Below, piece after piece: positions 3,766 through 38,982 of a DNA stretch of 64,000 nt. The notes under the pieces are model-generated. The model worked only from the letters and a program-made list of their open reading frames with translations. It was not told the DNA's origin and searched no databases. Within the stretch, counting starts at the first letter, position 1; each line of letters opens with the position of its first letter. The position numbers and the translations under genes are program-made. The stretch comes from Armatimonadetes bacterium DC (GTDB lineage Bacteria; Armatimonadota; Fimbriimonadia; Fimbriimonadales; GBS-DC), in assembly GCA_001442985.1 (NCBI GenBank), contig LDYB01000018.1, forward strand, positions 1 through 64,000, given 5' to 3'.

Positions 3766-3833
3766 TATGGACTGCGGAAGCGCCGCTTCCGCGCTGTCTT
3801 CCCCACGCTGAAGCTGCGCTTCAGCACTCCATA
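3766..3833. repeat. Foldback element: two hairpins inside an outer stem
   Basis: Outer arms TATGGAcTGCgG (3766-3777) and the near inverse of CAGCACTCCATA (3822-3833) enclose two perfect palindromes. These are GCGGAAGC-gcc-GCTTCCGC (3774-3792) and GCTGAAGC-tgc-GCTTCAGC (3807-3825). The element lies between two transcription units. Its layout matches the elements at 14254, 25939 and 38801, although the sequence differs. Confidence 0.65.
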
Positions 3834-3908
3834 CTCGCGGTGCTGAAAATAAAATGCAAAGACACTTAGAAGCAGGAGTCTCGGATTTTTACGGCGTAAT
3901 CTAATTGT

Positions 3909-5249
3909 ATGGCAACACTAACGCAAAGCAGGCGTGCAACACAGGTTGGTGTTGCGCTGGGGTATGCGGTGCTGAGTGGGCTTCTGATGGGGGTTGCGCT
4001 CCCGCCGTATGACCTGCCACTGGGGTTTGTGGCGCTGGCGCCCTTTTTTGCGGCGATATGGACCCTGCCTCGACTACTTGTGCCCCTTCTGGGACTGCTT
4101 CACGGCTGGCTCGTGGGGATGACCGCGATGGGGTTCGGCGTCGCGCTTTCGGAGGTGGGGGCACTGCTTCCGTTTCTGATTTACGGGGTTGCGGTGGGGG
4201 TTGTAGGGCTGGTCGCGCGCGATGTGGGCGACTTGTCGCGCCTGAGAGCTGTGCTGTGGGTCGGCGCGGCGGGCGTGTTGCTGGAGTATCTGGAGAGTTT
4301 CCTGTTTATCCCGTTTCATGCGGCGATGGCGGTCTGGCGCAATACGCCATTTCTGCAGCTGGCGACGGTGACGGGCGTGTGGGGGCTGTCGCTTTTCTTG
4401 TGGAGCGGCTGGGCGGCGCTGGGCTATGCGCTCGCGATGCGCCGATGGACGCCCGCACTGACCGCTCTGGTGGGGATTGGCGTGGCAATTCACGCCTTCG
4501 GTTTGCTCGCCATCTGGTGGAGCGAGCCGCGCGGTATGCCCCTCCGTGTCGCCGCTGTTCAGGGTGATCCCACAGACGCTGAGCTTATCCAGCAGGTGCG
4601 CCAGTCGGAGGCACAATTCGCGGTGATACCTGAAGCTTCGATCATGCAGGAGCAGGCTATCCCGCTTGCCAAAGAGATGGGCGTGCCTGTGATGGTGGGC
4701 TTCTGGGACAACGGCTATAACTGCGCCGCGATTGCCTTCCCTAACGGGAGAATGACCGCGCCCTATCACAAAATGCACCCTTATATTGTGGAGCGTTCCA
4801 CCATCCCTGGCACCCACGCCGAGCCGTTTCCCACCGAGTTCGGCTTGATTGGGGCGGCAATTTGCTACGACACGATGTTCACCGACACGCTCCGCCAGCT
4901 CTGTCGCCAGCGCGCTGTGCTGGTGGGTGTGCCGACGAATGACCCTGTGGCAAGCAATCTCGCGTACCATCACCTGCACGGCGCAATTCACACGATTCGC
5001 GCAGCTGAACACAGGATACCAATCGTGCGTGCCGAAAGCTGGGCAACTTCCATGATAGTGAACCGCGTGGGGCGTCTGGTGGCGAGCGCAGGAGAGGGTC
5101 CTGCAGTGCTGACAACCACCGTTCAGGTTGCCTCCAGCGGCACGCTTTATACCCTGCTGGGCGATTATTTGCCTCTCATTTGCCTTGTGGCGCTTGCGTG
5201 GGGCGTGCTGAGACGCAGGGGCGGGTGTCATAAATCAAGTGGGGTATAA
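3909..5249 (+). CDS. Lnt-like apolipoprotein N-acyltransferase / membrane carbon-nitrogen hydrolase
   Basis: 446 residues: six or so N-terminal membrane helices (1-205), then a carbon-nitrogen hydrolase domain (about 211-420) and a last helix. The nitrilase triad is complete: E242 in IPEAS, K288 in PYHKMH and C319 in AICYDTMF. This is the architecture of Lnt, which N-acylates lipoproteins. It is shorter than E. coli Lnt (about 510 residues), so a related amidase role is possible. A -10-like TAATCT (3897-3902) ends 6 nt before the ATG and there is no ribosome-binding site, suggesting a leaderless mRNA. Confidence 0.75.
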   Translation: MATLTQSRRATQVGVALGYAVLSGLLMGVALPPYDLPLGFVALAPFFAAIWTLPRLLVPLLGLLHGWLVGMTAMGFGVALSEVGALLPFLIYGVAVGVVGLVARDVGDLSRLRAVLWVGAAGVLLEYLESFLFIPFHAAMAVWRNTPFLQLATVTGVWGLSLFLWSGWAALGYALAMRRWTPALTALVGIGVAIHAFGLLAIWWSEPRGMPLRVAAVQGDPTDAELIQQVRQSEAQFAVIPEASIMQEQAIPLAKEMGVPVMVGFWDNGYNCAAIAFPNGRMTAPYHKMHPYIVERSTIPGTHAEPFPTEFGLIGAAICYDTMFTDTLRQLCRQRAVLVGVPTNDPVASNLAYHHLHGAIHTIRAAEHRIPIVRAESWATSMIVNRVGRLVASAGEGPAVLTTTVQVASSGTLYTLLGDYLPLICLVALAWGVLRRRGGCHKSSGV

Positions 5250-5373
5250 TAGGGTGGGAGGAAATCGCAACCCGTTGACTCCTTTCCGGGCGTATTTCCT
5301 CACCACCCCACCACGAAGGGAGGCGCGGATTCCCCGCCCGCGCCTCCCGTGAGCGTTTGACGGTTGAGCCGTC
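5245..5373 (+). ncRNA. Candidate structured RNA or leader between lnt-like gene and anmK
   Basis: A consensus -10 GGGGTATAAT (box 5245-5250) overlaps the lnt-like stop codon. The predicted transcript then folds into three successive stems. The first (5254-5265 with 5294-5306) is 12 bp with one bulge and an inner CCCG/CGGG helix. The second (5318-5328 with 5338-5348) is a perfect 11 bp. The third is GACGG/CCGTC (5359-5373). No T-run follows, so it could be an independent RNA or a structured leader of anmK. I match it to no known RNA family. Confidence 0.4.
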
Positions 5374-5417
5374 CTGTGCGCAATTAGACGCCCCGAATCA
5401 GGGACAGGTTCCGTAAA

Positions 5418-6584
5418 ATGAGTGCCGATTGCGTGGAATGGCTGAGCTACCTGCGCACGAAATCGCCGCGCTATGCGATTGGCTTGATGGCGGGCACTTC
5501 GCTGGACGGGGTGGACGGGGCGCTCGTGGCAATTGAGGGGCAAAAGGGGCATCGCGCCGTTCGGACGCTCGCCACGCACCACATACCCTACTCCCACGAG
5601 GAACGCGAGGGGCTTCTGCGCCTGATTGAGTCGGGTACACTGGCAGATTTATGCGCCTGGGACGCCTACCTTGGTGAAAAGTTCGCGGAGGTCGCGCTGG
5701 AACTGAGGCAGAAAGCCGGGGCACCCGTTGACTTCATCGGTTCACACGGGCAAACGGTGTGGCACGCGCCCAGCGCCCAACTGTTCGGGCGTCCCACGCC
5801 CAACACCCTTCAGATTGCCCAGCCTGAAGTGATTATGGCGCGCACGGGGGTTCCTGTGGTGGCGGATTTCCGCACGCGCGATGTGGCGCTGGGCGGTCAG
5901 GGCGCGCCGCTGGTGCCGTTCGTGGACTGGCTGCTGTTGCGCTCCGACGCCGAACCGCGTGCCGCGCTCAATATCGGCGGAATGGCAAACCTCACTTACC
6001 TGCCCCCGCAGGCGACGCCCGAATCGATTCTCGCGTTTGATACGGGTCCTGGGAACGCGCTGATAGATCTCGCCGTGCGCTGGCACACCGGGGGCAATCT
6101 CGCCTATGACCCCGACGGCTCCCTCGCGGCGCAGGCATCGCCCGATGAGGCTCTCCTTCATGAGATGCTGGCGCACCCCTTCTTTCAGCAGCCGCCACCG
6201 AAATCCACAGGGCGCGAAGTGTTCGGTGTGGAGTATCTCCAGAAATGGTGGGGGCGTGTGGAGCCGTTGACCCTGATTGCCACGCTCACCGAGTTGACCG
6301 CACGCACGATTGCGCAGGCGGTTCGGCAGTGGTGCATGCCTGTCGCCCGACTGATTGTTTCAGGGGGCGGGATGCATAACCAGACGCTGATGGCACGACT
6401 GCAGGCGCTCCTGCCTGAAGTGGCAATTCAATCCAGCGCAACCTTCGGCATAGACCCCGATTTTAAGGAGGCGATTGCCTTCGCTGTGCTGGCAGATTGC
6501 TACCTGATGGGCGAGCCTGTGGCGTTCCCAAACACCACGGGCGTCTCGCGCCCCGTGCGATTGGGGCGATTGTGTTGGGGGTGA
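5418..6584 (+). CDS. anmK: Anhydro-N-acetylmuramic acid kinase
   Basis: 388 residues. YAIGLMAGTSLDGVDGA (about 20-36) is the AnmK phosphate-binding signature. FIGSHGQTVWH, LAFDTGPGNALID and LIVSGGGMHNQTLMARL follow in the family order, the last being the ATPase-fold adenosine motif. The enzyme opens and phosphorylates 1,6-anhydro-MurNAc to MurNAc-6-phosphate, recycling peptidoglycan fragments. No murQ adjoins. The ATG at 5418 lacks a strong ribosome-binding site; upstream is the structured region described at 5245. Confidence 0.93.
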   Translation: MSADCVEWLSYLRTKSPRYAIGLMAGTSLDGVDGALVAIEGQKGHRAVRTLATHHIPYSHEEREGLLRLIESGTLADLCAWDAYLGEKFAEVALELRQKAGAPVDFIGSHGQTVWHAPSAQLFGRPTPNTLQIAQPEVIMARTGVPVVADFRTRDVALGGQGAPLVPFVDWLLLRSDAEPRAALNIGGMANLTYLPPQATPESILAFDTGPGNALIDLAVRWHTGGNLAYDPDGSLAAQASPDEALLHEMLAHPFFQQPPPKSTGREVFGVEYLQKWWGRVEPLTLIATLTELTARTIAQAVRQWCMPVARLIVSGGGMHNQTLMARLQALLPEVAIQSSATFGIDPDFKEAIAFAVLADCYLMGEPVAFPNTTGVSRPVRLGRLCWG

Positions 6585-6656
6585 ATGTCCTTCTTCGAAC
6601 AACGAGTCAAAAATTGGGGTATACTACCTCGTAGCACAGACCGATGGAGGTGACGC

Positions 6657-8447
6657 ATGAAAAACATCTCGTTGCGTGGAGGAGAATTTTTATTGCGTGA
6701 AGTGGAGCCGTCGCAGGTGTTCACGCCCGAAGACTTCACCTCGGAAGACCAGGCGATTGCGCAGGCGGCGGAAGATTTCGTGCGCGGTGAGGTGCAGACT
6801 CGCAACGCCGAAATTGAGAAGCAAGCAGAAGGCGTTACGGTGGGGCTGCTCAAAAAAGCGGGCGAACTGGGCTTGCTCAGCGGCGATCTGCCCGAAGCCT
6901 ATGGTGGGCTGAATCTGTCCAAGACCACCAGTACCCTGCTCGCCGAAAAGATGAGCCTGCAAGCCTCGTTCGCGGTCTCGTGGGGCGCGCATGTGGGCAT
7001 CGGCACGCTCCCCATTCTCTTTTTCGGCACGCCCGAACAGAAGCAAAAATACCTGCCCAAGCTGGCGACAGGCGAGATGATTGCCGCCTTCTCGCTCAGC
7101 GAGGCGAACTGCGGCTCCGACCCCCTCTCGGCGCGAACGAAAGCCACCCTCTCGCCCGACGGCAAGTATTACCTGCTCAACGGCGAGAAGATGTGGACGA
7201 CCAACGCGGGCTGGGCAGACCTGTTTATCGTGTTCGCCAAAGTAGATGGCGAGAAGTTCACCGCCTTTATTGTGGAGCGCAACTTCCCCGGCGTCTCGGT
7301 GGGGCGCGAGGAGCATAAGCTGGGCATCAAAGGCTCCAGCACGCGCCGCGTCATTCTGGAAAACGCGCAGGTGCCCGTGGAAAATGTGCTTCACGAAATT
7401 GGCAAGGGACACCATGTGGCGTTCGGTGTGCTGAACATCGGGCGCTTCAAGCTGGCGGCTGCCACGCTCGGCGGTGCGAAAGAAGCGCTCACCATCGCCA
7501 CACGCTACGCCAAAGACCGCCAGCAGTTCGGTCAGCCGATTGCCAACTTCGGCTTGATCCGCCAGAAGCTCGCCGAGATGGCTATCCAGATTTATGCGCT
7601 GGAAAGCACGGTCTATCGCACAGCGGGCATGCTGGACGAGGTATTTCACGGCATCGACGCCACCGCTCCCGACGCGAACGCGCAATACCGCGAGGCGGAC
7701 GAAGAGTACCCCGTGGAGTGCGCCATCCTGAAAGTGTTCGGCTCCGAAGTGCTGGACTTCGTGGCGGACGAAACGATGCAGATTCACGGTGGTTTCGGCT
7801 ACACTGAAGAGTTCCCCGCTGCGCAAATCTATCGCGACAGCCGAATCAACCGCATCTTCGAGGGCACGAACGAGATTAACCGCCTGCTGATGCTGGATCA
7901 GCTGATGCGCCGCGCCTTGAAAGGCAAGCTGCCGGGCTTGATGGAGAAGATTCAGGCGCTGCGTGCCGAGCTGAACCAGCCGCAGATGCCCACGCCCGAC
8001 CCCGCCGACCCGCTGGAAGCCATCGGGCGCTATGTGGTGAACGCCAAGAAGGCGGTGCTGATTACCGCAGGGATGGCAGCCGAGCAGGTCGGCACGGAGC
8101 TGGAGGAAAAGCAGGAGATTGTGGGGCATCTGGCGGACTGCCTGATTCAGCTCTACGCGATGGAGAGCGTGTGGCTACGCACGCGCAAACTCCAGCAGAA
8201 GGGGCTGGACATCACGATTCCGCTGGCGATGGCGCGCGTATTCGCCTACGATGCGTTCGACAAAATCGAGGCGAGCGCCCGGCGTGCCATTCACTCCTTC
8301 GCGGAGGGCGACATGCTCCAGATTCTGCTCACGGCGCTCAAGCGCTACACCCGCCGCACCGCGGAGGTCAACACGATGGCGCTCCGCCGCCAGATTGCTG
8401 AGTATGTAACTCAGCACGAACGCGCCTGGTCGGCGGCGGGGAAGTGA
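6657..8447 (+). CDS. Acyl-CoA dehydrogenase, extended (about 600-residue) type
   Basis: 596 residues. Domains in order: N-terminal helical (about 25-140), middle beta (FSLSEANCGSDPLS, about 145-250) and C-terminal helical. FEGTNEINRL carries the catalytic glutamate at the family position. A further 170 residues at the C-terminus resemble long FadE-like Bacillus enzymes. It oxidises an acyl-CoA at C2-C3 with FAD. GGGGTATACT (-10 TATACT) and GGAGGTGA precede the ATG. A paralogue lies head-to-head downstream (8488-10116), so the pair may handle different chain lengths. Confidence 0.93.
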   Translation: MKNISLRGGEFLLREVEPSQVFTPEDFTSEDQAIAQAAEDFVRGEVQTRNAEIEKQAEGVTVGLLKKAGELGLLSGDLPEAYGGLNLSKTTSTLLAEKMSLQASFAVSWGAHVGIGTLPILFFGTPEQKQKYLPKLATGEMIAAFSLSEANCGSDPLSARTKATLSPDGKYYLLNGEKMWTTNAGWADLFIVFAKVDGEKFTAFIVERNFPGVSVGREEHKLGIKGSSTRRVILENAQVPVENVLHEIGKGHHVAFGVLNIGRFKLAAATLGGAKEALTIATRYAKDRQQFGQPIANFGLIRQKLAEMAIQIYALESTVYRTAGMLDEVFHGIDATAPDANAQYREADEEYPVECAILKVFGSEVLDFVADETMQIHGGFGYTEEFPAAQIYRDSRINRIFEGTNEINRLLMLDQLMRRALKGKLPGLMEKIQALRAELNQPQMPTPDPADPLEAIGRYVVNAKKAVLITAGMAAEQVGTELEEKQEIVGHLADCLIQLYAMESVWLRTRKLQQKGLDITIPLAMARVFAYDAFDKIEASARRAIHSFAEGDMLQILLTALKRYTRRTAEVNTMALRRQIAEYVTQHERAWSAAGK

Positions 8448-8460
8448 ATATTCAGGAGGG

Positions 8461-8489
8461 AATGGGACAGGTCAATTGCCTGTCCCATT
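8461..8489. terminator. Hairpin between convergent acyl-CoA dehydrogenase genes
   Basis: AATGGGACAGG (8461-8471) pairs perfectly with CCTGTCCCATT (8479-8489) over a 7-nt loop. It starts 14 nt after one stop codon and overlaps the stop of the convergent gene. It has no long T-run, so it may act on both strands or only protect 3' ends. Confidence 0.6.
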
Positions 8490-10116
8490 ACCCTCGCCAC
8501 ACCGCCTCGTAAAGCGGGGCGATGGACTTCGGTGTGGGGATGAAGCGCGGCGCGCCCACAAGCGGTTCTAAGTCCGCCCACCAGCCGCTTAGCTGGCGAC
8601 GCACCCACTCGGCAAAAAGTTGCACCGCGTGCTGATGCGGCGCCTGCCCCGTCTTTTGTGCCCGATAGTGTGCCGAATCGAGCAGGTAGAGCGCAATCAG
8701 GGCGTCCGCGAGTGGCTCGACAAAAACCTGCGGCGGCTCAGCAAACGACTCCAGCGACTGGAAGGCGCGCCCTGCCAGCCAGCGCAGAGTTGTCAGCACG
8801 CCCTCTACGCTCTCGGCGTCCTGCGGCTCGGTGGAGTTTGGCGACCACAGCCCCTTGCGCCGCATGTAGAGCAGCCGCTCCACAAGGTTCAGGCGGTTGA
8901 TTTCGTTCGTGCCCTCGTAGATACGGTTCACGCGCGTGTCCCTGTAAAGCCGCGCAATCGGATACTCTTCCGAGAAGCCGTAGCCGCCGTGAATCTGGAG
9001 TGCGTCGTCCACAATCTGGTGGAGCATTTCGGTGGCGGCGACTTTGATCAGGGCGCATTCCGCGGCGAACAGCGCGGAGGCGGCGCGCCACGCCCCCTGT
9101 CGGGCGTCGTAGGGTAGCCCATAACCCTGTGCAAAGGCGCGCTCCAGGTCGCCCGCCAGTCGGTAGAGCGCGCTCTCTACCACGAACAGCATCACCTGCC
9201 CGCGCGCCAGCTTGCGCCAGACCAGATCAAACTCCACAATCGGGCGCCCGAACTGCTTGCGAACCTGCGCGTACTCAGAGCCGATTCGCCATGCCTCTTT
9301 CGCAATCCCCAGCGCCGCCGCGCCAATCTTGAAACGCCCGATATTCAGGGTATACAACGCCACATAGGCTCCCTGCCCCTCTTCGCCAAGGCGGTTCTCC
9401 ACAGGCACCGGCACCTGCTCCAGCACAATTCGGCAGGTAGAGGAGCCATGCAAACCCAGCTTATGCTCCTCGCGTTCCACAATAAAGCCGGGCGCACTGC
9501 GCGGCACAAGAAACGCCGTGAATCGTTCGCCGTCCACTTTAGCGAACACAATGAACAGGTCCGCGAAGCCCGCGTTCGTAATCCAGATTTTGTTGCCGTT
9601 GAGCAGGTAGTGCTGATCATGGCGTTCGGCGCGGGTGCGTGCGGAAAGCGCGTCGGAGCCTGCTTCAGGCTCGGTCAGGGCATAAGCGCCGATAAGCTCC
9701 CCCCGTGTGAGGAGTGGCAAATACTGCTGGGCTTGCGATTCCGTGCCGAACAGTAGTATCGGCAGGCTGCCCACGCTGGTATGCACCGCGTGCGAGACGG
9801 CAAACGACGGCTCCAGCGCGGTTTTCTCGGTAATCAGCGCGGAGGTGGTTTTCGGCAACCCCAGCCCACCATACTCTTCGGGCACATCAATCCCCAGCAA
9901 TCCCAGCAGCGCGGAGTCTCCAAGCAAATCGCGCATCGCGTGGGGGGCGTTATGCTCTATGAGGCGCACCTGCGGGGCGACCTGTTCGCGCATAAATCGC
10001 TCCGTCGCTTCGCCCATCTGGCGGTCTTCCGAGGTGAGGTGTTCAGGGGTAAAACACGCTTCGGGGGGCGCTTCTAAAAAGGCACCACTGCGCACAGGTT
10101 GCGTCGTTGCATCCAT
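8488..10116 (-). CDS. Acyl-CoA dehydrogenase, second paralogue
   Basis: 542 residues from the ATG at 10116 (MDATTQPVRSG). It shares domain order and many motifs with the neighbour at 6657: LTEPEAGSDALS, LNGNKIWITNAGFADLF and YEGTNEINRL with the catalytic glutamate. It is about 50 residues shorter, mostly in the C-terminal extension. TACAAT (10128-10123) ends 6 nt before this ATG and there is no ribosome-binding site, so a leaderless mRNA is likely; this also decides the start over the longer frame to 10212. An ancient duplication with inversion is the simple explanation. Confidence 0.9.
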   Translation of the reverse strand: MDATTQPVRSGAFLEAPPEACFTPEHLTSEDRQMGEATERFMREQVAPQVRLIEHNAPHAMRDLLGDSALLGLLGIDVPEEYGGLGLPKTTSALITEKTALEPSFAVSHAVHTSVGSLPILLFGTESQAQQYLPLLTRGELIGAYALTEPEAGSDALSARTRAERHDQHYLLNGNKIWITNAGFADLFIVFAKVDGERFTAFLVPRSAPGFIVEREEHKLGLHGSSTCRIVLEQVPVPVENRLGEEGQGAYVALYTLNIGRFKIGAAALGIAKEAWRIGSEYAQVRKQFGRPIVEFDLVWRKLARGQVMLFVVESALYRLAGDLERAFAQGYGLPYDARQGAWRAASALFAAECALIKVAATEMLHQIVDDALQIHGGYGFSEEYPIARLYRDTRVNRIYEGTNEINRLNLVERLLYMRRKGLWSPNSTEPQDAESVEGVLTTLRWLAGRAFQSLESFAEPPQVFVEPLADALIALYLLDSAHYRAQKTGQAPHQHAVQLFAEWVRRQLSGWWADLEPLVGAPRFIPTPKSIAPLYEAVWRG

Positions 10117-10129
10117 AGCATGATTGTAC

Positions 10130-10372
10130 CTACTCTTCGTCCTGCTGGAGTTCGCGCAGGAGGTCTTCAATCTCCTGACGGAGTTGGGCGCGGGTTTCGG
10201 GGTCGGGTTCAAAGTGAACGACGAGGCTCTCGCCTTCGCGTGTGCCTTCGGGGAGCCAGCTCAGAGGGGCATGCCATTCCAGATAGTCGCCCTCGCCCAG
10301 CCGCACCAGCAGCACGGCAAGCGGCTCGCCGTCGGCACGGGTCTCGATACGATCCACGAAGACGCGCCTCAT
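10130..10372 (-). CDS. DUF3006 family protein
   Basis: 80 residues starting MRRVFVDRIETR; the ATG overlaps the polX stop (ATGA), so it is probably translated from the polX mRNA. The pattern DRIE...AVLLV...LPEGTREGESL, followed by a charged helix, is that of DUF3006, a small protein of unknown function. No signal peptide or membrane segment. Confidence 0.75.
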   Translation of the reverse strand: MRRVFVDRIETRADGEPLAVLLVRLGEGDYLEWHAPLSWLPEGTREGESLVVHFEPDPETRAQLRQEIEDLLRELQQDEE

Positions 10373-12093
10373 CCGCGCACCTCCTTGAGCCACGCGCGCA
10401 GTTCGGGCAGGGGGCGTGTGTTCAGCACGCGCTCGGCGGTGAGCCAGCCGCGCTGTGCCAGCCCCACCGCGAGCGTCATCATGCGCAGGTCGCTGGCGCG
10501 ATGCGCGTCCGTGCCCAGCGCCACCCATGCACCGCTCTGTTCCAGAATCCGCACAATCGGCGTGGGCGGGTCCATGCGGGTGGTGTAGCCGTTGACCTCC
10601 ACCGCCTTGCCCAGTTCGTAGGCGCGGCGGAACACGCGCTCCCAGTCGGCGTCGTTCGGCTCGCGCTTGCCGAACCGCCTGCCCGTGGGGTGCGCCAGAA
10701 TATGCACGCTCGGGTGTTCCAGCGCCCGGATCAGGCGCCGGGTCATCGCTTCGGGTTCCTGCCCGTGTCCATAGTGAATCCCAGCCACCACGATTTCGGC
10801 TTCTTTCAGCAGCTCTTCGGGCGCATCGAGCGTGCCGTCGATATCGATGTTCACCTCCAGCCCGTTCAGCACCACCAGCCGCCCTGCCATTTGTTCGTTA
10901 AGGCGTTCTATCTCCCGCTGCCGCTGGCGAAAGAGGTGAAACACATCGCCCTGCCACGCGAACATCTCCACATGGTCGGTGAGGGCGAGGTAGGTGTAGC
11001 CCTGACTCAACGCTTCCTGTGCCATCGCTTCACTCGTGTCTTGCCCATCAGACCATCGGGAGTGGGTCTGAAGGTCGCCCTGAATCTGTTCGCGCGTTAC
11101 CAGCGCGGGCAGGCTGCCCTGCAATGCGCGCTCTATCTCGCCACTGTTTTCTCGGAGGGGTGGGGGAATGTAAGGCAATCCCAGCGCCTCGTAGACCTCT
11201 GCTTCGGTTTCGCGTGCGACGCACTCCGTGCCGCGCCACACCCCATATTCGTTCAGTTTCAGTCCGCGCTCGATGGCAATCTCGCGCAGGCGAATGGAGT
11301 GAGCTTTGGAACCCGTGATGTAGAGCATTCCCGCGCCCCAACTGACGGGCGGCACGGTTTTGAGGTCTACCTGAAGCCCGCCTTCCAGAAAAATCTGGGC
11401 GCGGTTGTCGCCCTGCGCGAAGACTTCCGTCGTGCCGGGCATCTGCACAAATGCTGCAATCACTTTTTCAGGGTGTTCGGTGGCGACCAGGAAGTCTATG
11501 TCGCCGATGGTTTCCTGCATGCGTCGTATGGAGCCACCCACCAGCGCGTTTTGCACATGCGGCAGCTGCTGAAGCCAGTGCAGTTTCTCCTGTGCCAACC
11601 AGTAGACGGTGCCGAGCGGTCGGCGCTGGCGTGCCTTCTTAATCAGCTCAGTCAGGCGCAGCAGACGCTGGCGTTTCGCCTCGCCAAAGTGCGGAATCTG
11701 AAGCACCGCGCCACTCGCCAGCGCGTTCTGAAGGCTCTCCAGGTCATGAACCCCCAGATGCTCGTAAAGCAGGCGGGCGGTTTTCGGACCGATTCCCGGC
11801 ACCTGCATGACTTCCAGGATCCCCTCAGGCACAAGTTGCAGGAGCTGCTGGTGTTTGGGGATGACCCCTGTGTTGAGGTAGGCAATAATTTTCTCGGCGA
11901 TGGCTTTGCCGATGCCCGGCACCGCTTCCAGAGCCTCCTGACCCTGCTCGGCGAGCGACTCGATGGGGGTCTGCATGGTTTCCAGCAGTCGTGCGGCGTT
12001 GCGATAGGCACGCGATTTGAACTGGCTCTCGCCTACATAGTCCGAGAGGTCTGCCAGTTCGTTCAGCAATCGCGCGAGTTCCAGATTGCGCAC
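10369..12093 (-). CDS. polX: DNA polymerase/3'-5' exonuclease PolX
   Basis: 574 residues. Order: helix-hairpin-helix lyase-like region (1-130, with VPGIGKAIAEKI and VPGIGPKTARLL), pol-beta nucleotidyltransferase core (GSIRRMQETIGDIDFLVA, near 190, with the metal aspartates), then a C-terminal PHP domain (DLQTHSRWSDGQ, LALTDHVE, HILAHPTGR). PolX fills gaps in base-excision repair and trims with the PHP nuclease. The start is GTG at 12093. TACACT (12106-12101) ends 7 nt upstream with no ribosome-binding site, so translation is probably leaderless. Confidence 0.93.
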   Translation of the reverse strand: MRNLELARLLNELADLSDYVGESQFKSRAYRNAARLLETMQTPIESLAEQGQEALEAVPGIGKAIAEKIIAYLNTGVIPKHQQLLQLVPEGILEVMQVPGIGPKTARLLYEHLGVHDLESLQNALASGAVLQIPHFGEAKRQRLLRLTELIKKARQRRPLGTVYWLAQEKLHWLQQLPHVQNALVGGSIRRMQETIGDIDFLVATEHPEKVIAAFVQMPGTTEVFAQGDNRAQIFLEGGLQVDLKTVPPVSWGAGMLYITGSKAHSIRLREIAIERGLKLNEYGVWRGTECVARETEAEVYEALGLPYIPPPLRENSGEIERALQGSLPALVTREQIQGDLQTHSRWSDGQDTSEAMAQEALSQGYTYLALTDHVEMFAWQGDVFHLFRQRQREIERLNEQMAGRLVVLNGLEVNIDIDGTLDAPEELLKEAEIVVAGIHYGHGQEPEAMTRRLIRALEHPSVHILAHPTGRRFGKREPNDADWERVFRRAYELGKAVEVNGYTTRMDPPTPIVRILEQSGAWVALGTDAHRASDLRMMTLAVGLAQRGWLTAERVLNTRPLPELRAWLKEVRG

Positions 12094-12120
12094 GGCAGAA
12101 AGTGTACCCGATTAAACGCG

Positions 12121-12185
12121 AAAGCCCCCTTCGCACAGAGCGTTGGGGGCAAGCAGGTTGTTGGGGCAGGCACGACGCCTGCCCC
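12121..12185 (-). terminator. Tandem hairpins after the SLH porin gene
   Basis: GGGGCAGGC-acgac-GCCTGCCCC (12163-12185) is followed, reading leftward, by the stem GCCCCC/GGGGGC (12124-12129 with 12145-12150) and then TTTCGCG. They lie just past the porin stop and before the polX promoter. The T-run is short. Confidence 0.5.
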
Positions 12186-12198
12186 ACCGAAACGCGGG

Positions 12199-14088
12199 TT
12201 AGAACTTGATGGTGAGCGTGGTCGCGGCGACGCCTGCCTGGTTCTTGTTGGGGTTGGGACCGCCGCTGAACGCCGCGTTGCCCTTGCCATCGTTGTCGAT
12301 GATCTGGTAGAGCAAGTTCCAGGAGGCGTTCTCGCCGAGGTTGTAGCCCAGACCGACGGTGACATAGTTCCACACGGGCTTCACACCGCCGACCTTCCAG
12401 AAGGCGCCCTCGTAGTTGAGCGACACATTCCAGCGATCGGACAGGCGGTAGTCGATGCCCGCCACCGCGTGAACTACCTCGTCGTTCTTGGTGTACCCGC
12501 CAGCGACACGCCCGGTTCCCTCGAGGAAGGCGCCGCCAACGCGGACATTCAGGTCCTCAGAGGGCTTCCAGGAGACATTCGCGTAGGCACCGCGCAGGTC
12601 AGACGGGTTGTAGAGGTACGCAACGCGACCCCAGTAGCCCGGCGAGGCGAAGTACGGGCGCACTTCACGATACCCGGCGGTCACGCCGAGGTTCTCGCTG
12701 AAGTTGTAGCTCAGGTTCACATCGAGCGCCCAGTTGTCCTCATCCAGCACATTGCTGGTGCCGCGCATGAAGTTGCTCTGCGCGTACTCGGCGCCGATGT
12801 TGAAGCCTGCGAACTTCGCCTTGATGTCCGCGCCGAACACATCCACGCGGTCGATGTTGACAGCCTCGGCAGGACCGCCAGCGAAGTTGAAGTTCTGCCC
12901 GACACCGATCCCGGCGGCGAAGTAGGTCGCGCCGATGGTCAGGCTGGTCTCCTCACCGCGCACGGCGTCGAACTCCAGGCGCGCGCCTGCGAACTGATCC
13001 GCAGCGCGGCTGGTCGCCGAGTTGTGGTTGTAGAACGGCAGGGTGGAGAACTGACCCGCGGTGGAGTTGATAGCAGCGGTCTGTGCCGCCCACAGGTTCA
13101 GGCGGAAGGTGTCGAAGTTGAAGGCGAATGCCGCGCCGTCCACGCGATACGCCCCGTCATCGTAGCGCGGGAAGTTCAGGTAGTAGTCGGGCTTCACGCG
13201 CTTGAGGGTGAACGGAGTCAGCTGCGCGGGGAAGCGACCGATGGTGACATCCACCTTCGTGCCGAACAGGTCAATCGGGGTCTTCACATAGGCTTCCCAG
13301 ATGGCGATGTCAGTGTTGCCAGCGGGACCACGACCGACTCGGGAAATTGTGTTGGGAAATGCGCTGAGGTAGTTACCCAGCACGAAGGTTGCCGTACCCG
13401 ACACATTCTCGTTCACCTGGCCGCTGAAGGTGAGACCCAGCTCATGGTAAATATTCAGGGTCTCCAGCAGGTCATCGGTGGCAGCCACATTGTTCCCGTT
13501 GAGGGTCGTGGCGCCCTTGCGATCGATGTTGTTGACGCCCGTGACGCCGAAGCTCACATCGCCCGAGATGGAGAAGCCTTCCTTCTTGGCTTCCAGGGCG
13601 GCGACCCGGTCACGCAGGGACGCGACATCCTTCTTCAGGGAGTCGACATCCACGCCGAGGTTCGCCAGCTCCTGCTGGAAGGTCTGGGCGAGTCGCTGCA
13701 GAGTCTGCAGGGCGTCGTTGAGCTTCTTGAGCTCGTTGATCTCGTTGCGCAGCGCCTGAATGTCGCGGCGCGCCTGCTCATCAGCAGTCGGAGCCTGCTG
13801 ACCGCCACCTCGAGGCGCGTTCGCAATCTCGTCGATGCGGCGGCTCAGCGCCTGCAAGCGCTCGTTGATGTTATTGTAGGCGCGCGCAATCGCCTGCGCA
13901 AACTCAGCGCGGGTCATGGTGCGGTTCGGGCGGAAAGTCCCATCGGGGTAGCCCTCGATGATGCCATCGCGCACCAGCTGCTCGATCGCCTGATAAGCCC
14001 AGTGACCAGGCGGTACATCACGCATTTGGGCAAAGGTGAAGCCTGCAATCAGGCTCAGCCCAGCTGCAACTGTAAGTAAACGCTTCAT
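12199..14088 (-). CDS. SLH-domain outer-membrane porin
   Basis: 629 residues from the ATG at 14088 (GGAGGG upstream; longer frame to 14313 rejected). Signal peptide 1-20 (MKRLLTVAAGLSLIAGFTFA). One S-layer-homology domain at about 22-72 (DVPPGHWAYQAIEQLV, GIIEGYPDGTFRP, TRAEFAQAI). A coiled coil at about 75-160. The rest is rich in alternating aromatic beta-strands and ends TTLTIKF, as in beta-barrel porins. Such proteins tether the outer membrane to cell-wall polymers and form general pores. Strong promoter at 14218-14247 and a leader of about 120 nt suggest high expression. Confidence 0.85.
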   Translation of the reverse strand: MKRLLTVAAGLSLIAGFTFAQMRDVPPGHWAYQAIEQLVRDGIIEGYPDGTFRPNRTMTRAEFAQAIARAYNNINERLQALSRRIDEIANAPRGGGQQAPTADEQARRDIQALRNEINELKKLNDALQTLQRLAQTFQQELANLGVDVDSLKKDVASLRDRVAALEAKKEGFSISGDVSFGVTGVNNIDRKGATTLNGNNVAATDDLLETLNIYHELGLTFSGQVNENVSGTATFVLGNYLSAFPNTISRVGRGPAGNTDIAIWEAYVKTPIDLFGTKVDVTIGRFPAQLTPFTLKRVKPDYYLNFPRYDDGAYRVDGAAFAFNFDTFRLNLWAAQTAAINSTAGQFSTLPFYNHNSATSRAADQFAGARLEFDAVRGEETSLTIGATYFAAGIGVGQNFNFAGGPAEAVNIDRVDVFGADIKAKFAGFNIGAEYAQSNFMRGTSNVLDEDNWALDVNLSYNFSENLGVTAGYREVRPYFASPGYWGRVAYLYNPSDLRGAYANVSWKPSEDLNVRVGGAFLEGTGRVAGGYTKNDEVVHAVAGIDYRLSDRWNVSLNYEGAFWKVGGVKPVWNYVTVGLGYNLGENASWNLLYQIIDNDGKGNAAFSGGPNPNKNQAGVAATTLTIKF

Positions 14089-14217: not shown

Positions 14218-14247
14218 ACTATACCCCATCGCTGACAAAAAAATCAA
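14218..14247 (-). promoter_or_regulatory. Promoter of the SLH porin gene
   Basis: TTGATT (14247-14242) and TATAGT (14223-14218) are 18 bp apart, and GGGG directly precedes the -10. The leader to the ATG is about 120 nt. The 164-bp repeat begins six bases upstream of the -35, so its insertion may alter expression. Confidence 0.65.
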
Positions 14248-14253
14248 GTCCCC

Positions 14254-14417
14254 CTGAGGGTGTTCGAAAAATCGCTGCCGAATAAGACGGGTGAACCCGT
14301 TCCTATCAGACAAAGCCAGCCTCCGCTGGCTTAATCAGCCGACGCAGGTCGGCTTCGTTTTATAGGAACGGAACCTCAGCCGTCAGGTACAAAAGCGGAT
14401 TCTTCGAACACCCTCAG
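14254..14417. mobile_element. 164-bp MITE-like element with 15-bp terminal repeats and nested double hairpin
   Basis: Perfect 15-bp inverted ends, CTGAGGGTGTTCGAA (14254-14268) and its complement (14403-14417). They are flanked by a TCCCC duplication (14249-14253 and 14418-14422). Inside, CCGTTCCTAT/ATAGGAACGG (14297-14306, 14362-14371) encloses two back-to-back hairpins: AGCCAGC/GCTGGCT and AGCCGAC/GTCGGCT. It encodes no protein. The inner part recurs near 25939-26080. Confidence 0.75.
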
Positions 14418-14441
14418 TCCCCCTCTAAATGCGCTTGTAAG

Positions 14442-17990: not shown

Positions 17991-18028
17991 ACCCCAATTC
18001 TACCCGCACGGGTATAATTCCAACAGCG

Positions 18029-25792: not shown

Positions 25793-25930
25793 CCCTCGCA
25801 GAGATAGCGAATTCATAGGTCGGGCGCGGGAACCGCATCCCTACTCGTATGCGTAGGGGCGCGGTCGCCGCGCCCCACGCGGCACAACTCGCTGGGTCAG
25901 CAAGCGGAACAAGCAGCCTTGCAACAGAGC
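25793..25930. mobile_element. Second, decayed copy of the hepT-interrupting MITE
   Basis: From about 25826 to 25930 the sequence is nearly identical to the element at 38801-38938, including GGGGCGCGG-tcg-CCGCGCCCC (25856-25876) and the right end TTGCAACAGAGC (25919-25930). The left terminal repeat is degraded, so the left border is approximate. No target duplication can be recognised. Confidence 0.65.
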
Positions 25931-25938
25931 AGCTAAAG

Positions 25939-26080
25939 CCGTTCCTAATAAATAAAGCCAGCCTCCGCTGGCTCCCGTAGCAGGGGCATCCTGCCCCTGC
26001 CCACGCGCAGGATGCGCGTGCTACTTCAGCCGACGAAGGTCGGCTTCGTCTCATAGGAACGGAACCTCAGCCGTCAGAAC
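25939..26080. mobile_element. Foldback element related to 14297-14386, with a nested palindrome
   Basis: It shares CCGTTCCTA, AGCCAGC/GCTGGCT, AGCCGAC/GTCGGCT, ATAGGAACGG and the following CTCAGCCGTCAG with the 14-kb element. Between its two hairpins, in place of TAAT, sits a 48-bp palindromic insert (25977-26024). That insert has GTAGCA/TGCTAC ends and two hairpins of its own. It lacks the outer 15-bp repeats. It directly follows the decayed MITE. Confidence 0.65.
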
Positions 26081-26096
26081 CTCACCACCCACAAAC

Positions 26097-26131: not shown

Positions 26132-26136
26132 CTTCC

Positions 26137-28613
26137 GTTTCAATCCCTCACAGGTAGGCTACAAACCATACCAATACCCCAACGCAACGTGCCCTGAATG
26201 TAGTTTCAATCCCTCACAGGTAGGCTACAAACCCTCTCCTGCGAATGTCCCGCTTTTGAGCGAACCCGTTTCAATCCCTCACAGGTAGGCTACAAACTCC
26301 ATCGTGCGCTTGTCGAAATCCCGACTGCCGATATCGGTTTCAATCCTTCACAGGTAGGCTACAAACGCTGGGGCGCAATTTTGAGCGCTTCCTGCGCTAT
26401 CTGTTTCAATCCCTCACAGGTAGGCTACAAACAAGAGCGCCAGGCCCTCGTGATTACTGAGGGGTCTGGTTTCAATCCCTCACAGGTAGGCTACAAACAT
26501 CACAAACTGGAACACCTCTCGGAGGACGAAATCCGTTTCAATCCCTCACAGGTAGGCTACAAACGCGCTCATGCTTGTCAACGAGGGAGGTGAACCTCAG
26601 AAGTTTCAATCCCTCACAGGTAGGCTACAAACTCATCAGCCCCAGCATCTTATACGATCTGGGGTATGTTTCAATCCCTCACAGGTAGGCTACAAACGCG
26701 CAACTCCGCATCAAAGAAGAAGAAAAAGCCACGTTTCAATCCCTCACAGGTAGGCTACAAACTCGTAAGAAAAAATGGAACCCCCCGCCGTGAGAGGTTT
26801 CAATCCCTCACAGGTAGGCTACAAACTATCCAACGACCTCCTTCGGCTCGTAAAGCGAGCGTGTTTCAATCCCTCACAGGTAGGCTACAAACGGTTTTAG
26901 CCTGTTTGTTGGTGGCAGTATATTTGAGTTTCAATCCCTCACAGGTAGGCTACAAACGCGACGCTGGGAACTCCTCAACTTCGTCATCCGCAAGTTTCAA
27001 TCCCTCACAGGTAGGCTACAAACTGTTGCAGGCGTTGCGGGGCGCACATAGTCATCGTGTTTCAATCCCTCACAGGTAGGCTACAAACCGAGGCGGCTGC
27101 CCGCCTCGGCGTTACAAGGCAATAGTTTCAATCCCTCACAGGTAGGCTACAAACGCGCTCGCCAGCATTTAGTTCCCACAGATGGGAACGTTTCAATCCC
27201 TCACAGGTAGGCTACAAACCGCCGAGGACTACTGGGCGATCAAGCACAGCCCAAGTTTCAATCCCTCACAGGTAGGCTACAAACCTGCCGTGCAAGATTG
27301 TAAAACATCCGCGAACCATAGTTTCAATCCCTCACAGGTAGGCTACAAACCCAGCTGCAATCACCGCCGTTTTTCAAGCTGGTGAGTGAGTTTCAATCCC
27401 TCACAGGTAGGCTACAAACAGTTCCGAAACGACGCGGTATGAAATCACCCTGCGTGTTTCAATCCCTCACAGGTAGGCTACAAACCAGCGTGCGCCACGG
27501 ACGCCGCTGGGGCGGACGATACGGTTTCAATCCCTCACAGGTAGGCTACAAACACACACCTGCGAAGCATGCCTGTACCCCGAAATCGAGTTTCAATCCC
27601 TCACAGGTAGGCTACAAACCAGCAGAGGAGTTTGCAGTTTGAGCGTCGCTACATTCGTTTCAATCCCTCACAGGTAGGCTACAAACCGAAAATCCCCGAA
27701 AACCCTTGACTTTTTTTGTCAGGGTTTCAATCCCTCACAGGTAGGCTACAAACGGTGCAGAGTTTGCAGCCTTTGCGGACGACGAAGTTGGTTTCAATCC
27801 CTCACAGGTAGGCTACAAACGTTCTGCGCTCACGAGATCTTTGAGGGCTTCGAGGGGTTTCAATCCCTCACAGGTAGGCTACAAACGGCGGCGTTTCGTT
27901 TCCTGCAGGATTCGCGTTTTCGTTTCAATCCCTCACAGGTAGGCTACAAACCCGTATCGCGCAGCGCATTGTCGATGGCTTGCGCGTTTCAATCCCTCAC
28001 AGGTAGGCTACAAACCCCGCTCACATGCGTCTCTATACCTAATCAGCGCTTCGGTTTCAATCCCTCACAGGTAGGCTACAAACTATGGATTTTGTTCGCA
28101 TCCGACCAGACGGGTTTTAGTTTCAATCCCTCACAGGTAGGCTACAAACAGAAATATTATGAGTTTTTTGGGAGAAGAAAAAAAAGTTTCAATCCCTCAC
28201 AGGTAGGCTACAAACCATCAGACATCACCCCGCGCGTGGCGGCGTTGGACGAGTTTCAATCCCTCACAGGTAGGCTACAAACTTGTTCGCGGTCGAGGTC
28301 GACGGCGACGATGGGCAGTTTCAATCCCTCACAGGTAGGCTACAAACGGGATGGGAGTTCTGTATCGCCTGCCTTGGTCTGGGAGGTTTCAATCCCTCAC
28401 AGGTAGGCTACAAACGGAGACGCTGGCAGAATTGCTAATGCACCTAGATTTGTTTCAATCCCTCACAGGTAGGCTACAAACAGCCTCCAGGAAACCGAAG
28501 AAGCCTGTACCGTGACGCGTTTCAATCCCTCACAGGTAGGCTACAAACAAAATAGCCAAGTTCATTCAACAGTTCAAAGAACTGTTTCAATCCCTCACAG
28601 GTAGGCTACAAAC
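26137..28613 (-). CRISPR. CRISPR array, 38 repeats and 37 spacers, no adjacent cas genes
   Basis: The 30-bp repeat reads on the plus strand GTTTCAATCC...GGCTACAAAC; spacers are about 34-38 bp. The complement ends ATTGAAAC, the usual 3' end and 8-nt handle of type I/III crRNAs, so the transcript runs right to left. Agreeing with this, a consensus promoter lies beyond the right end (28700-28729) and a terminator at the left end. The fourth repeat from the left (26337) carries C-to-T (CCTTCAC), as expected away from the leader. No cas gene lies within the window on either side. Confidence 0.97.
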
Positions 28614-28944
28614 CAACCCGCCTTTTGCGGGTCGGTCCCGAAAATGAGTTCAAAACGGTTCCGATTGTCAAGGTTCGGGCGTTGCCCGTTGGCGGGTTTA
28701 TTATACCCCATCGGTGTCGGTGAAGTCAAGCTTTGGCGTCGATCGGACTCGGATTTGAACTCAAGGGGTGAAAAGCTGGCGATCGACGCCAAGTGGGTTT
28801 TTGGGGTACAGGATGTGGTGTGTGGTAGCGAATGCAACGCGCTACCTGTGGTGTATCGCTTCTCGGTTTGTCGTCGAACGAAGGGTTAGTCAAAAAATCG
28901 GGCAAAATGAGTTCAAAATTGGGTAAAAAGTCGCTTCTGGAGAA
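28614..28944. promoter_or_regulatory. CRISPR leader and upstream region with repeated motifs
   Basis: No gene. AAAATGAGTTCAAAA occurs twice in direct orientation (near 28643 and 28906), and TTTGAACTCAA once inverted (near 28754). TTGGCGTCGATC (28733-28744) is repeated inverted and perfect at 28781-28792. These are candidates for integration or regulatory sites next to the leader; the function is unknown. Confidence 0.55.
28700..28729 (-). promoter_or_regulatory. CRISPR leader promoter
   Basis: On the minus strand TTGACT (28729-28724), 18 bp, then TATAAT (28705-28700), with GGGG before the -10. Transcription would start near 28693, about 80 nt before the first repeat. Confidence 0.8.
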
Positions 28945-30168: not shown

Positions 30169-30189
30169 ACGCATAGGATACCACACTTC

Positions 30190-33180: not shown

Positions 33181-33206
33181 AGGGCTCCCTCGCTTTTAAA
33201 AGGGAA

Positions 33207-33282
33207 TGGCGCCCTCGGAGGGATTCGAACCCCCGACGCCCTCCTTAGGACGGAGGCGCTCTATCCACTGAGCTACGAGGGC
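33207..33282 (-). tRNA. tRNA-Arg (anticodon CCT)
   Basis: Cloverleaf with acceptor GCCCTCG/CGAGGGC, anticodon stem CCTCC/GGAGG and loop GTCCTAA, T-loop TTCGAAT, and an encoded CCA (33209-33207). Reads AGG. Confidence 0.95.
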
Positions 33283-33300
33283 GCAACTTCGGAGGTTTGC

Positions 33301-33376
33301 TGGCGCGCCCGGAGGGATTCGAACCCCCGACCTCAAGGTCCGCAACCTTGCGCTCTATCCCCTGAGCTACGGGCGC
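33301..33376 (-). tRNA. tRNA-Arg (anticodon GCG)
   Basis: Acceptor GCGCCCG/CGGGCGC, anticodon stem CAAGG/CCTTG with loop TTGCGGA, T-loop TTCGAAT, encoded CCA (33303-33301). The anticodon GCG reads CGC and probably CGU, unlike the ACG usual in bacteria. Confidence 0.93.
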
Positions 33377-33388
33377 ACGAACACAGAG

Positions 33389-33418
33389 ATTATACCCCAT
33401 TCCTGACGGCAATTGCAA
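33389..33418 (-). promoter_or_regulatory. Promoter of the two tRNA-Arg genes
   Basis: TTGCAA (33418-33413), 18 bp, GGGG then TATAAT (33394-33389). The first tRNA begins about 12 nt downstream. Confidence 0.8.
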
Positions 33419-33482
33419 GGGGTTGTGAGGGCGTTCAAAAAAAAAATCGTCTCCTGTGCCCCTTGTCGGTTCGCGGCGGCGC

Positions 33483-34637: not shown

Positions 34638-34705
34638 ACGCGCCTCCGTAAGGATTATACCTGATGGGGTAGGAGTCGCGTCCATCAGAGGGAATTAAAC
34701 AGGGC

Positions 34706-36661: not shown

Positions 36662-36740
36662 GAGGCGATTCAGGCGTGGTTCCAGAACTTTGTGGGAGAC
36701 GGGGAGCGCTATCAGGGAGAGAGGTCTGGAGTGCTGGGGT

Positions 36741-36787
36741 CAGAGCGCGATCCCCCTCTGTGCCCAGAGCAGGGGAGTCGCGCTCTG
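36741..36787. terminator. Strong hairpin between convergent genes
   Basis: CAGAGCGCGA (36741-36750) pairs with TCGCGCTCTG (36778-36787), enclosing CCCC/GGGG; AGTTTTGAG follows. It serves the membrane-protein gene and perhaps the convergent peptidase gene. Confidence 0.65.
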
Positions 36788-36803
36788 AGTTTTGAGTGAG
36801 CCT

Positions 36804-38570
36804 CTACTGGGGCGCGGCGGGCACGACCTGAACCTTCATCTCCTGCCCGTTGCGCACAATCGTGAACTCGACAGGTTTGCCCGGCTCCATCTGGTCATAG
36901 AGCTGGGTCAGCTCCTCGATGCTCTTGACCTGCTTGCCCATCACAGCGACGATACGGTCGCCTGCCCTAAGCCCTGCTTTTTCGGCGGGTGAGCCGGGCA
37001 CCACACCGCCAAGCAGCACGCCGTTCGCCTCGCCCGAATATTCGGGGATTAGCCCAATCCGCACGCGGAACCCCGCGCGGGCGCCCGTCGCAGGCGCAGG
37101 CTGGCTGGGACGGCTGAAGGCGATGCGCTCCTCACGCTGTGCCAGCTGACGCGCCACCCGCTCCACCATCGCCACCACCTTCGCCTGACCTTCGTAGTTA
37201 ATCGTGTCCCATGTGTCGGTGGGGCGGTGGTATTCAGGGTGCATGCCTGTGAAGAAGAACAGCACGGGAATGTTCGCCATAAAGAAGGAGGTGTGATCGC
37301 TTCCGCCCGTGCTTGCCTGGCTCAGGTTGAGGGTCAAGCCGTCGGTGTTGGCAGCCTTGACAATCTCTTCCCACTGGGGCGAGCTGCCCAAGCCGCTGAT
37401 GGAGAGGCGGTCTTCGCGCAGGCGCCCGATCATGTCCAGATTAATCATCGCCACGATTTTGTCTGTGGGCACAGTGGGGTTGCGCACGAAGTAGGCGGAG
37501 CCGACCAGCCCCTCCTCCTCGCCCGAAAAGGCGATAAACAGAATGCTTCTGGGCAGCTTCTCGCGCTGAAGCGACAGGATTCGGGCGAGTTCCAGCAGCC
37601 CTGCCGTGCCAGAAGCGTTGTCATCTGCGCCGTAATGAATCTCGCCCGGCTCGAACGCCAGCGAGCCGACTTCGCCGTAGCCGAGGTGGTCATAGTGCGC
37701 CCCAATCACGATAATCTCCTCGCGCTTGTTGGGGTCAGCGCCCGGCAGGAACCCAATCACATTGCGTGCGATGCCCTTGCGCGGCTCCAGCTGAACCGTC
37801 ATCGCGACTTTCACGGGCAGGGCGACGCTGACGGGCTGTTTCGTCTCGTTGATGCGCTTGACCGCCTCTTCCACGGTGAGGTTGGCGGTTCGGAGCAGGC
37901 GGTTGGCGACTTCGGTGTTAACATTCACCACCGCGCCCGAAACGACGCTCGCCCGCCCGCGCATGCCCAGCGGTAGCAGGGGCTGATTGGGCAGGTTCAG
38001 CAGAATCACACCGGTTGCGCCTTTTTCAAATGCCGTGCGCAGTTTGGTGGGGATTCGAGCGACTCGCTGCGCCGTGCCTGCGTCCAGCCATTCGGGCGCA
38101 CCGCGCAAAATCGCGACGACTTTCCCTTTAACATCCACGCCCGCGTAATCGTCATAGGCTGGCTCCTGCAGGCTCAAGCCGTACCCGACGAACACCACTT
38201 CGCCCTCGGTGGTGGTGTTATCGCTCAGGTTGCTGGGGCGAAAAGCGTCGGCAGGCACCTCCCAGCGGTTGCCGTTAGCGAACTCCACACGGAGCGCGGT
38301 GTCTTTGCCGGTCGTATAGCCGATGGTCATCTCAAAGTCCTGAAAGTAGCCCTGAGTGCCCTTCGGCTCCAGTCCGTACTCGGCGAACATGCGCGCGATA
38401 TACTCGCCTGCCTTGTGCCCGCCGGGGGCAATTGCCAGACGCCCCTCCATCTCAGGCGACGCCAGCGTCTTCACATGCGATTGCAGGTTGCTCACCGAGA
38501 CGCTGGGCACATCGGCGAGGGCAAACGCAATAAGTGCCAGCAAACCGAGCCACAAACCAACTTTTCTCAT
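36804..38570 (-). CDS. M28 family zinc aminopeptidase with C-terminal PDZ domain
   Basis: 588 residues from the ATG at 38570 (GGAGG upstream; TATACT at 38648-38643). Signal peptide 1-20. A protease-associated insert at about 130-240. The M28 catalytic domain carries the metal ligands and base in GAHYDHLG, GADDNASGTAGLLEL, FSGEEEGLVGS, NLDMIGR and GSDHTSFF. A PDZ domain at about 500-585 (GVVPGSPAEKAGLRAGDRIV). It should trim peptides outside the cytoplasm. Confidence 0.9.
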   Translation of the reverse strand: MRKVGLWLGLLALIAFALADVPSVSVSNLQSHVKTLASPEMEGRLAIAPGGHKAGEYIARMFAEYGLEPKGTQGYFQDFEMTIGYTTGKDTALRVEFANGNRWEVPADAFRPSNLSDNTTTEGEVVFVGYGLSLQEPAYDDYAGVDVKGKVVAILRGAPEWLDAGTAQRVARIPTKLRTAFEKGATGVILLNLPNQPLLPLGMRGRASVVSGAVVNVNTEVANRLLRTANLTVEEAVKRINETKQPVSVALPVKVAMTVQLEPRKGIARNVIGFLPGADPNKREEIIVIGAHYDHLGYGEVGSLAFEPGEIHYGADDNASGTAGLLELARILSLQREKLPRSILFIAFSGEEEGLVGSAYFVRNPTVPTDKIVAMINLDMIGRLREDRLSISGLGSSPQWEEIVKAANTDGLTLNLSQASTGGSDHTSFFMANIPVLFFFTGMHPEYHRPTDTWDTINYEGQAKVVAMVERVARQLAQREERIAFSRPSQPAPATGARAGFRVRIGLIPEYSGEANGVLLGGVVPGSPAEKAGLRAGDRIVAVMGKQVKSIEELTQLYDQMEPGKPVEFTIVRNGQEMKVQVVPAAPQ

Positions 38571-38681
38571 AGCGACCTCCACTGGGTACAGATGGCGAAA
38601 CGGCGCGTTTGTTTCGCAAAACACACGCGCACGCCTGCCGAGAGTATACCCCCTCTTTTGAGGGAACCCTAATATTGCTCA

Positions 38682-38982
38682 CTATCTGCCTTCAACAGCG
38701 AGCGTAAGACAGGCGAGTGTGCGCTGATCCTGCAGAAAAGTGGCGTAATCCATTCCCTGCACATACTCTGCGATGCGCTCCATCGCTTCCAAAATATGCT
38801 GCTCTGTTGCAAAGATCAGGAGATTCAAGGAACAGGACGCGGGAACCGCGTCCCGTATGCGTAGGGGTGCGGTCGCCGCGCCCCATGCGGCACAACTCGC
38901 TGGGTCAGCAAGCGGAACAAGCATCCTTGCAACAGAGCAAAATATGCTGTAAGTATCGCAGGTCACGGTCTGCCCTAGACAT
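38682..38982 (-). pseudogene. hepT: hepT remnant interrupted by a 138-bp MITE
   Basis: The start ATGTCTAGG (38982) overlaps the mntA stop, and the frame reads MSRADRDLRYLQHI up to the insertion. Removing the element and one copy of the duplication restores HILEAMERIAEYVQGMDYATF, a HepT (DUF86) N-terminus, in the same frame. After QDQRT the similarity ends and a stop follows at 38682, so the 3' half is also lost. Intact HepT is an RNase toxin of about 110-140 residues; this one is surely inactive. Confidence 0.8.
38801..38938. mobile_element. 138-bp MITE with 12-bp terminal repeats and 10-bp target duplication
   Basis: Perfect inverted ends GCTCTGTTGCAA (38801-38812) and TTGCAACAGAGC (38927-38938). 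Flanked by AAAATATGCT on both sides (38791-38800 and 38939-38948). Two internal hairpins, GGACGCGG/CCGCGTCC (38835-38853) and GGGGTGCGG/CCGCGCCCC (38864-38884). It encodes no protein; a transposase elsewhere must have moved it. Confidence 0.9.

Follow-up and report, generated by a model that had tools for sequence, protein, structure and literature searches.

Within the window, the whole stretch of 64,000 nucleotides of Armatimonadetes bacterium DC that was analysed, four loci that differ in sequence display an outer inverted repeat around adjacent hairpins, raising the question of how a single design came to be shared by elements of such dissimilar sequence. Direct reading of the sequence, together with an inverted-repeat search, recovered the outer repeat and two adjacent hairpins at all four loci. 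The initial annotation had counted exactly two hairpins in each element and had placed the first at 3766; the count needs amending at the 25939 locus, which has four hairpins in two nested pairs, and the first element, whose repeat and hairpins are indeed present, extends more widely, from 3728 to 3868. The features are as follows.

3728-3868, no strand assigned: family A element, with arms TTAAGTGCC and GACACTTA around two hairpins and further copies in the genome
3774-3792 and 3807-3825, no strand assigned: the family A hairpins, GCGGAAGCGCCGCTTCCGC and GCTGAAGCTGCGCTTCAGC, respectively
14247-14255, no strand assigned: left target duplication AGTCCCCCT, 9 bp (right copy 14416-14424); 9-10 bp at the same boundary in other E copies
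14256-14415, no strand assigned: arm E MITE, ends GAGGGTGTTCGAAAAATC, containing core B
14287-14383, no strand assigned: core B in arm E, with outer hairpin ACGGGTGAACCCGT at 14287-14300 and outer right motif ACGGAACCTCAGCCGT at 14368-14383
14314-14331 and 14337-14354, no strand assigned: central hairpins of core B in arm E
25822-25931, no strand assigned: family D copy truncated on the left but retaining the right end TTGCAACAGAGCA, adjoining B
25932-26074, no strand assigned: core B, with C nested inside; hairpins 25956-25973 and 26028-26045 at the centre, motif ACGGAACCTCAGCCGT on the right at 26059-26074
25977-26024, no strand assigned: nested pair C, GTAG-hairpin followed by hairpin-CTAC; GTAG REPs in a head-head dimer, the tag lying outside
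38792-38799, no strand assigned: left target duplication AAATATGC, 8 bp (right copy 38940-38947)
38800-38939, no strand assigned: family D element, ends TGCTCTGTTGCAA, enclosing a hairpin at 38835-38853 and a GTAG-tagged hairpin at 38861-38884

These loci are built on a nested design, in which the outer arms are the ends of miniature transposons (MITEs) and the inner pairs are REP-like inverted dimers; in each family read directly, the two hairpins are related to each other in inverted orientation, and the differences between them are compensated.

Copy families and the excess of hairpin pairs

Each locus represents a multi-copy family in the 2.85 Mb genome, whose contig C18 carries the window: family A gave 8 matches, B/E 66 (some being one place counted on both strands), B with C 94 and D 79 (many of them ends only). 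With up to three mismatches allowed, the element end GAGGGTGTTCGAAAAATC has 41 matches and TGCTCTGTTGCAAAGAT has 95, as against 0 control matches. Using a minimum stem of 7 bp and a gap of at most 15, we counted 36 adjacent hairpin pairs against 1.7 expected from shuffles in 800 kb, and 9 against 1.0 in a further 400 kb, although this is not an unbiased genome average because the stretches were partly picked at known copies (the first 40 in part by choice, while some of the later 20 also contained them). Single hairpins barely rise above the shuffle (420 against 349 in the 800 kb, 208 against 173 in the 400 kb), and clusters of three or more number just 3 in total in the sampled stretches. The suggestion that several loci have a common design is thus borne out both by the non-random excess of pairs and by the use of the design in several families, and it survived the check, made on these stretches, of whether single or many-hairpin palindromes are equally common.

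The four elements fold as single-stranded DNA far more strongly than their shuffles (z = -4.2, -5.9, -7.0 and -5.1). In the predicted folds of the B cores and of the element at 38800 an outer stem surrounds separate hairpins, whereas the minimum-energy fold of the element at 3728 instead pairs its two halves together. In G004, a relative of the same family whose genome is a single contig, 400 kb of evenly spaced sequence contained 15 hairpin pairs against 4.3 expected. Most of the pairs there belong to family A and not to B; therefore, separate two-hairpin families have expanded in separate genomes. One region of that genome (L336, G004:C1:950001-970000) is a local array of family A, made up of several almost identical copies whose flanks are repeated.

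Transposon ends and target sites

The boundary of arm E, which starts GAGGG, and that of family D, which starts TGCTCTG, are each fixed by many copies; E elements are 158-428 bp long and D elements mostly 94-277 bp. Their target duplications are of fixed length, as in MITEs, at 9-10 bp for E and 8 bp for D. Both-end E elements with such duplications include perfect cases at L009, L010 and L166 and cases with one mismatch at L011 and L066, the duplicated sequences being TCGCGCTCT, AGTCCCCCT and AGTGGGGTA plus two of 10 bp with one mismatch. In the window the initial annotation had given duplications of 5 and 10 bp, and was right that the lengths differ; the actual values are 9 bp for the element at 14254 and 8 bp for that at 38801, the earlier figures having arisen because neighbouring bases were included or omitted. 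As had been argued from the difference, 9 versus 8 bp does suggest different transposases.

The sources of two arms could be traced. In the relative G013 an E-B-E element flanked by the 10 bp duplication AGGGGGTGGG adjoins an insertion sequence with matching ends (G013:C168:1-1007), which encodes a DDE_Tnp_1 transposase in a broken reading frame, and a broken remnant of an E-type DDE insertion sequence also lies beside an E end in this genome. F arms share ends with an intact DDE_Tnp_1 element (G000:C25:5403-6848) that has the ends CTTAAAGGGGTAGGTTTTTTG and an 11 bp duplication, CTCCGTGAGGT. Elements with E and F arms are short and non-coding, with terminal inverted repeats and with ends common to an autonomous element, as expected of MITEs. 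We infer their mobility from target duplications and copy number; no clean empty site was obtained in the relatives, which are only about 73% identical, with synteny broken at the element. Synteny with several genomes of the same family breaks at 14256-14415, and in G004 a long distance separates the left neighbour from the right one (C1:2210303 and C1:1500394).

Family D has a preferred target. Among 11 D elements with perfect 8 bp duplications, the duplicated sequence is GCTAAAGC in four and GCTGAAGC in two; GCTTTAGC, GCTTCAGC, GGTTCACC and GGTTCAGG occur once each, as does AAATATGC, which belongs to the window copy. In 9 of the 11 it corresponds to the middle of ACGGSTNAASCCGT, the hairpin at the boundary of core B. 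Hairpin tips are thus the main target of D, with the window copy as an exception. In this respect D resembles IS1272, for which a hairpin is likewise the target (PMC5678879). IS1272 replaces the stem-loop without a target duplication (PMC5678879), whereas insertion of D leaves the middle 8 bp of the hairpin in duplicate, on which grounds we rejected an IS1272-like, inverted-repeat-replacing element. An IS6-family assignment, though consistent with the 8 bp duplication, was likewise set aside, as the DDE_Tnp_IS240 domain (PF13610) was found in none of six genomes, comprising this one and near relatives; the same search yielded no cognate transposase or autonomous source for D. Source transposases for arm G and family A were similarly not identified, nor any autonomous element sharing the ends of A.

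The D pair at 38800, with GTAG inside, is a tail-tail dimer with a small deletion, of which intact sister copies exist. A longer form of D, of 202 bp (L131:9673-9874), encloses another hairpin pair with GGTTCCCC stems. The copy at 38800 appears to interrupt a candidate minus-strand reading frame (38640-38947) that resembles a small protein of the HEPN/DUF86 type. Elsewhere, L131:5309-7047 (C25) is a three-layer nest with E arms outermost, D ends within and an intact DDE insertion sequence at its centre.

Core B and a probable constraint on the pair

Core B consists of an outer hairpin with a TNAA loop, a spacer, the central hairpins AGCCNNCCTNCGNNGGCT and AGCCNNCGNAGGNNGGCT, a second spacer and an inverted outer hairpin, most copies having the outer hairpin at each end. 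This genome holds 40 strict copies. Among the matches listed, the same layout extends at least to Fimbriimonadales, Chloroflexi (at least Oscillochloris, Anaerolineae, Thermoflexia, Aquidulcis and Chloroploca) and Cyanobacteria (at least Calothrix, Spirirestis and Cyanomargarita), and the named genomes with these repeats are mostly Fimbriimonadales of the Armatimonadota, same-family relatives included. Within Armatimonadota, B was found in 7 of 291 genomes, all of one family, with 40 and 69 copies in two of them and 0-4 in the rest.

In the search pattern for B, four stem positions in each hairpin, equivalent to two pairs, were unconstrained, and among the matches listed from three phyla 487 of 504 such unconstrained stem pairs are Watson-Crick, as against a mean of 178 and a maximum of 209 in shuffles, in copies whose shared descent makes these non-independent events. 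Outer hairpins with a stem of at least 5 were found on 197 of 250 sides, compared with 14 when shuffled, and their loops are TGAA (102), TAAA (55) or TCAA (8) while the stems are quite different in each lineage (again among the matches listed). Based on the comparison of sequences, the compensated stem changes and fixed loops across three phyla support the view that the folded form is under selection, which sustains one side of the earlier suggestion of a common structural need. We rejected pairing between the left and right spacers as a further instance of covariation; a left spacer fits other right spacers of the genome about equally well, and the match therefore reflects a group consensus.

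The two halves of B differ in all 34 cores of this genome and all 43 of SKYB70, where random pairing would predict a fraction of about 0.55, and heterodimers also make up 30 of 37 cores in Chloroflexi, though only two of five in Cyanobacteria (the other three being homodimers); here too copies related by descent are not independent events. In this genome and SKYB70 the local hairpins have fold energies of -16 kcal/mol versus about -13.5 for inter-half pairing, and identical halves would reach about -29; Chloroflexi cores show no such preference for local hairpins (18 of 37). It may be that the two hairpins have to fold separately, or that long perfect palindromes are avoided; both readings predict this pattern.

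Arms E, F and G, among others, enclose core B; D lies within the end hairpin of B, and C within B itself. Such modular, nested parts leave independent convergence of four whole elements, as had been envisaged, unsupported. This real nesting could be read as the whole story, with palindromic elements inserted into one another at random and two hairpins arising as a by-product and not as a requirement. We regard that reading as quite unlikely: a two-hairpin core occupies 13 of 13 both-end E elements checked (12 with B and one with a D pair), leaving none pair-free, and the fixed loops with compensated stems, the heterodimer halves and the expansion of A in G004 indicate constraint on the pair. 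In B copies, moreover, the left arm and the right arm are drawn in mixed fashion from several families, which we attribute to probable recombination at shared hairpins. Because many copies have such mismatched arms, few flanks of B pass the 1% threshold for inverted repeats (5 of 34 here, 17 of 43 in SKYB70).

Another possibility is that the paired hairpins serve mainly as bidirectional transcription terminators or mRNA stabilizers maintained by host selection, in keeping with the position of the window copies largely between long open reading frames and with the fact that both B copies in the window have one central hairpin that scores as terminator-like. Yet terminator-like matches remain near the shuffled level (1 against 0.7, and 2, one of them outside B, against 0.4), T tracts are weak in other phyla, and copies are patchy among close relatives, unlike host-selected sites, all of which makes such a role decidedly improbable. 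It is conceivable, if unlikely, that core B represents a folded module conserved across phyla, comprising two central hairpins with CTNC-type loops and two outer hairpins with TNAA loops, which some factor recognizes in folded form and which different transposons have repeatedly adopted as their interior. A CRISPR array (26137-28613, repeat GTTTCAATCCCTCACAGGTAGGCTACAAAC, Rfam CRISPR-DR2) lies directly beside the B+C element, and in L014 (C17) the same leader-like sequence and CRISPR repeat come after a B copy.

Single-strand routes and a proposed mobilization in trans

The interiors of C and D resemble GTAG REPs, with their head-head and tail-tail dimers as defined in PMC3733652, and REPINs (PMC3116915), in having GTAG, an 8 bp stem, a 3-nt loop and an inverted dimeric arrangement, with GTAG outside in C and inside in D. 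Only these two interiors combine a short loop and a 6-13 bp stem with a terminal GTAG, which is absent from the hairpin feet of cores A and B. Genomic GTAG tags yielded 24 hairpins per 4381 tags, compared with 1-11 hairpins per 1364-13170 tags for eight control tags. Unlike REPs and REPINs, the pairs described here are embedded within elements with terminal inverted repeats, A and B are untagged, and no intact RAYT was found; Armatimonadota are absent from PMC3733652.

The GTAG dimers with 8 bp stems and 3-nt loops would fit REPs or REPINs that a RAYT or an IS200-type tyrosine transposase moves in the form of folded single strands, with the outer repeats being incidental, and Y1 domains are present in the Chloroflexi and cyanobacterial hosts of B, with the cyanobacterial L319 and L322 proteins retaining HVH and the tyrosine. 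In this genome, however, we found one Y1 domain only and no intact IS200/RAYT transposase with both HUH and tyrosine, although with an assembly 95% complete the absence is not certain. The sole Y1_Tnp-domain protein (L099, G000:C15:64063-64392; about 266 aa) reads QVH in place of HVH, the first HUH histidine being gone, and continues into a sigma-70 region 4-like domain; the catalytic tyrosine is apparently also missing, as read from the protein sequences, its column lying outside the aligned stretch. Relatives G004, G013 and G015 share the degenerate form, and G004 carries it together with one B copy. Because of these losses, single-strand mobilization by an IS200/RAYT route is not supported in this host, nor is that part of the suggested structural need; with outer arms bounded by target duplications as well, we judge this explanation unlikely. 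An IS200/IS605-type element, lacking terminal inverted repeats and target duplications, was rejected as a candidate, both being present here. The degenerate Y1/sigma-region-4 protein looks like a domesticated transposase that may have become a DNA-binding protein.

Instead, we propose that the elements are probably MITEs mobilized by DDE transposases, with an interior built from a REP-like unit of one hairpin as an inverted dimer and with heterodimer cores. The outer arms would be the ends of DDE insertion sequences, whose transposases would act in trans to move arm and core as one unit, generating duplications of 8-11 bp. The core might persist provided that each half folds as its own hairpin and the halves are different enough to avoid one long perfect palindrome, and hairpin tips would offer a repeated landing site for further elements. 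Recombination between shared hairpins would shuffle arms and cores, and on this proposal the same design would reappear with different sequences.

Like MITEs of DDE insertion sequences (IS4-like, DDE_Tnp_1), these elements are about 100-430 bp long and non-coding, share ends with them (E and F) and have 8-11 bp duplications; unlike MITEs, they have an interchangeable two-hairpin heterodimer core common to unrelated arms, and the arms here are mosaic. The ingredients, namely MITEs, REP dimers and nesting, are ordinary; what is unusual is that one heterodimer two-hairpin architecture recurs across phyla and in carriers unrelated to one another. One interior architecture can thus be common to miniature elements whose ends are unrelated, with its two halves kept different yet internally paired and with hairpin tips as precise landing sites, which gives a testable reason for the occurrence of REP-like repeats as pairs. 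For this repeat, which combines fixed loops with compensated stems across phyla, no Rfam family scored above its gathering score on the element, only far sub-threshold matches being seen, and among the papers searched, sequence strings of B gave no relevant match. In view of the B copies in Calothrix, Spirirestis and Cyanomargarita, core B may overlap with the very small mobile repeats of cyanobacteria, as far as these are described where PMC3733652 cites Elhai 2008.
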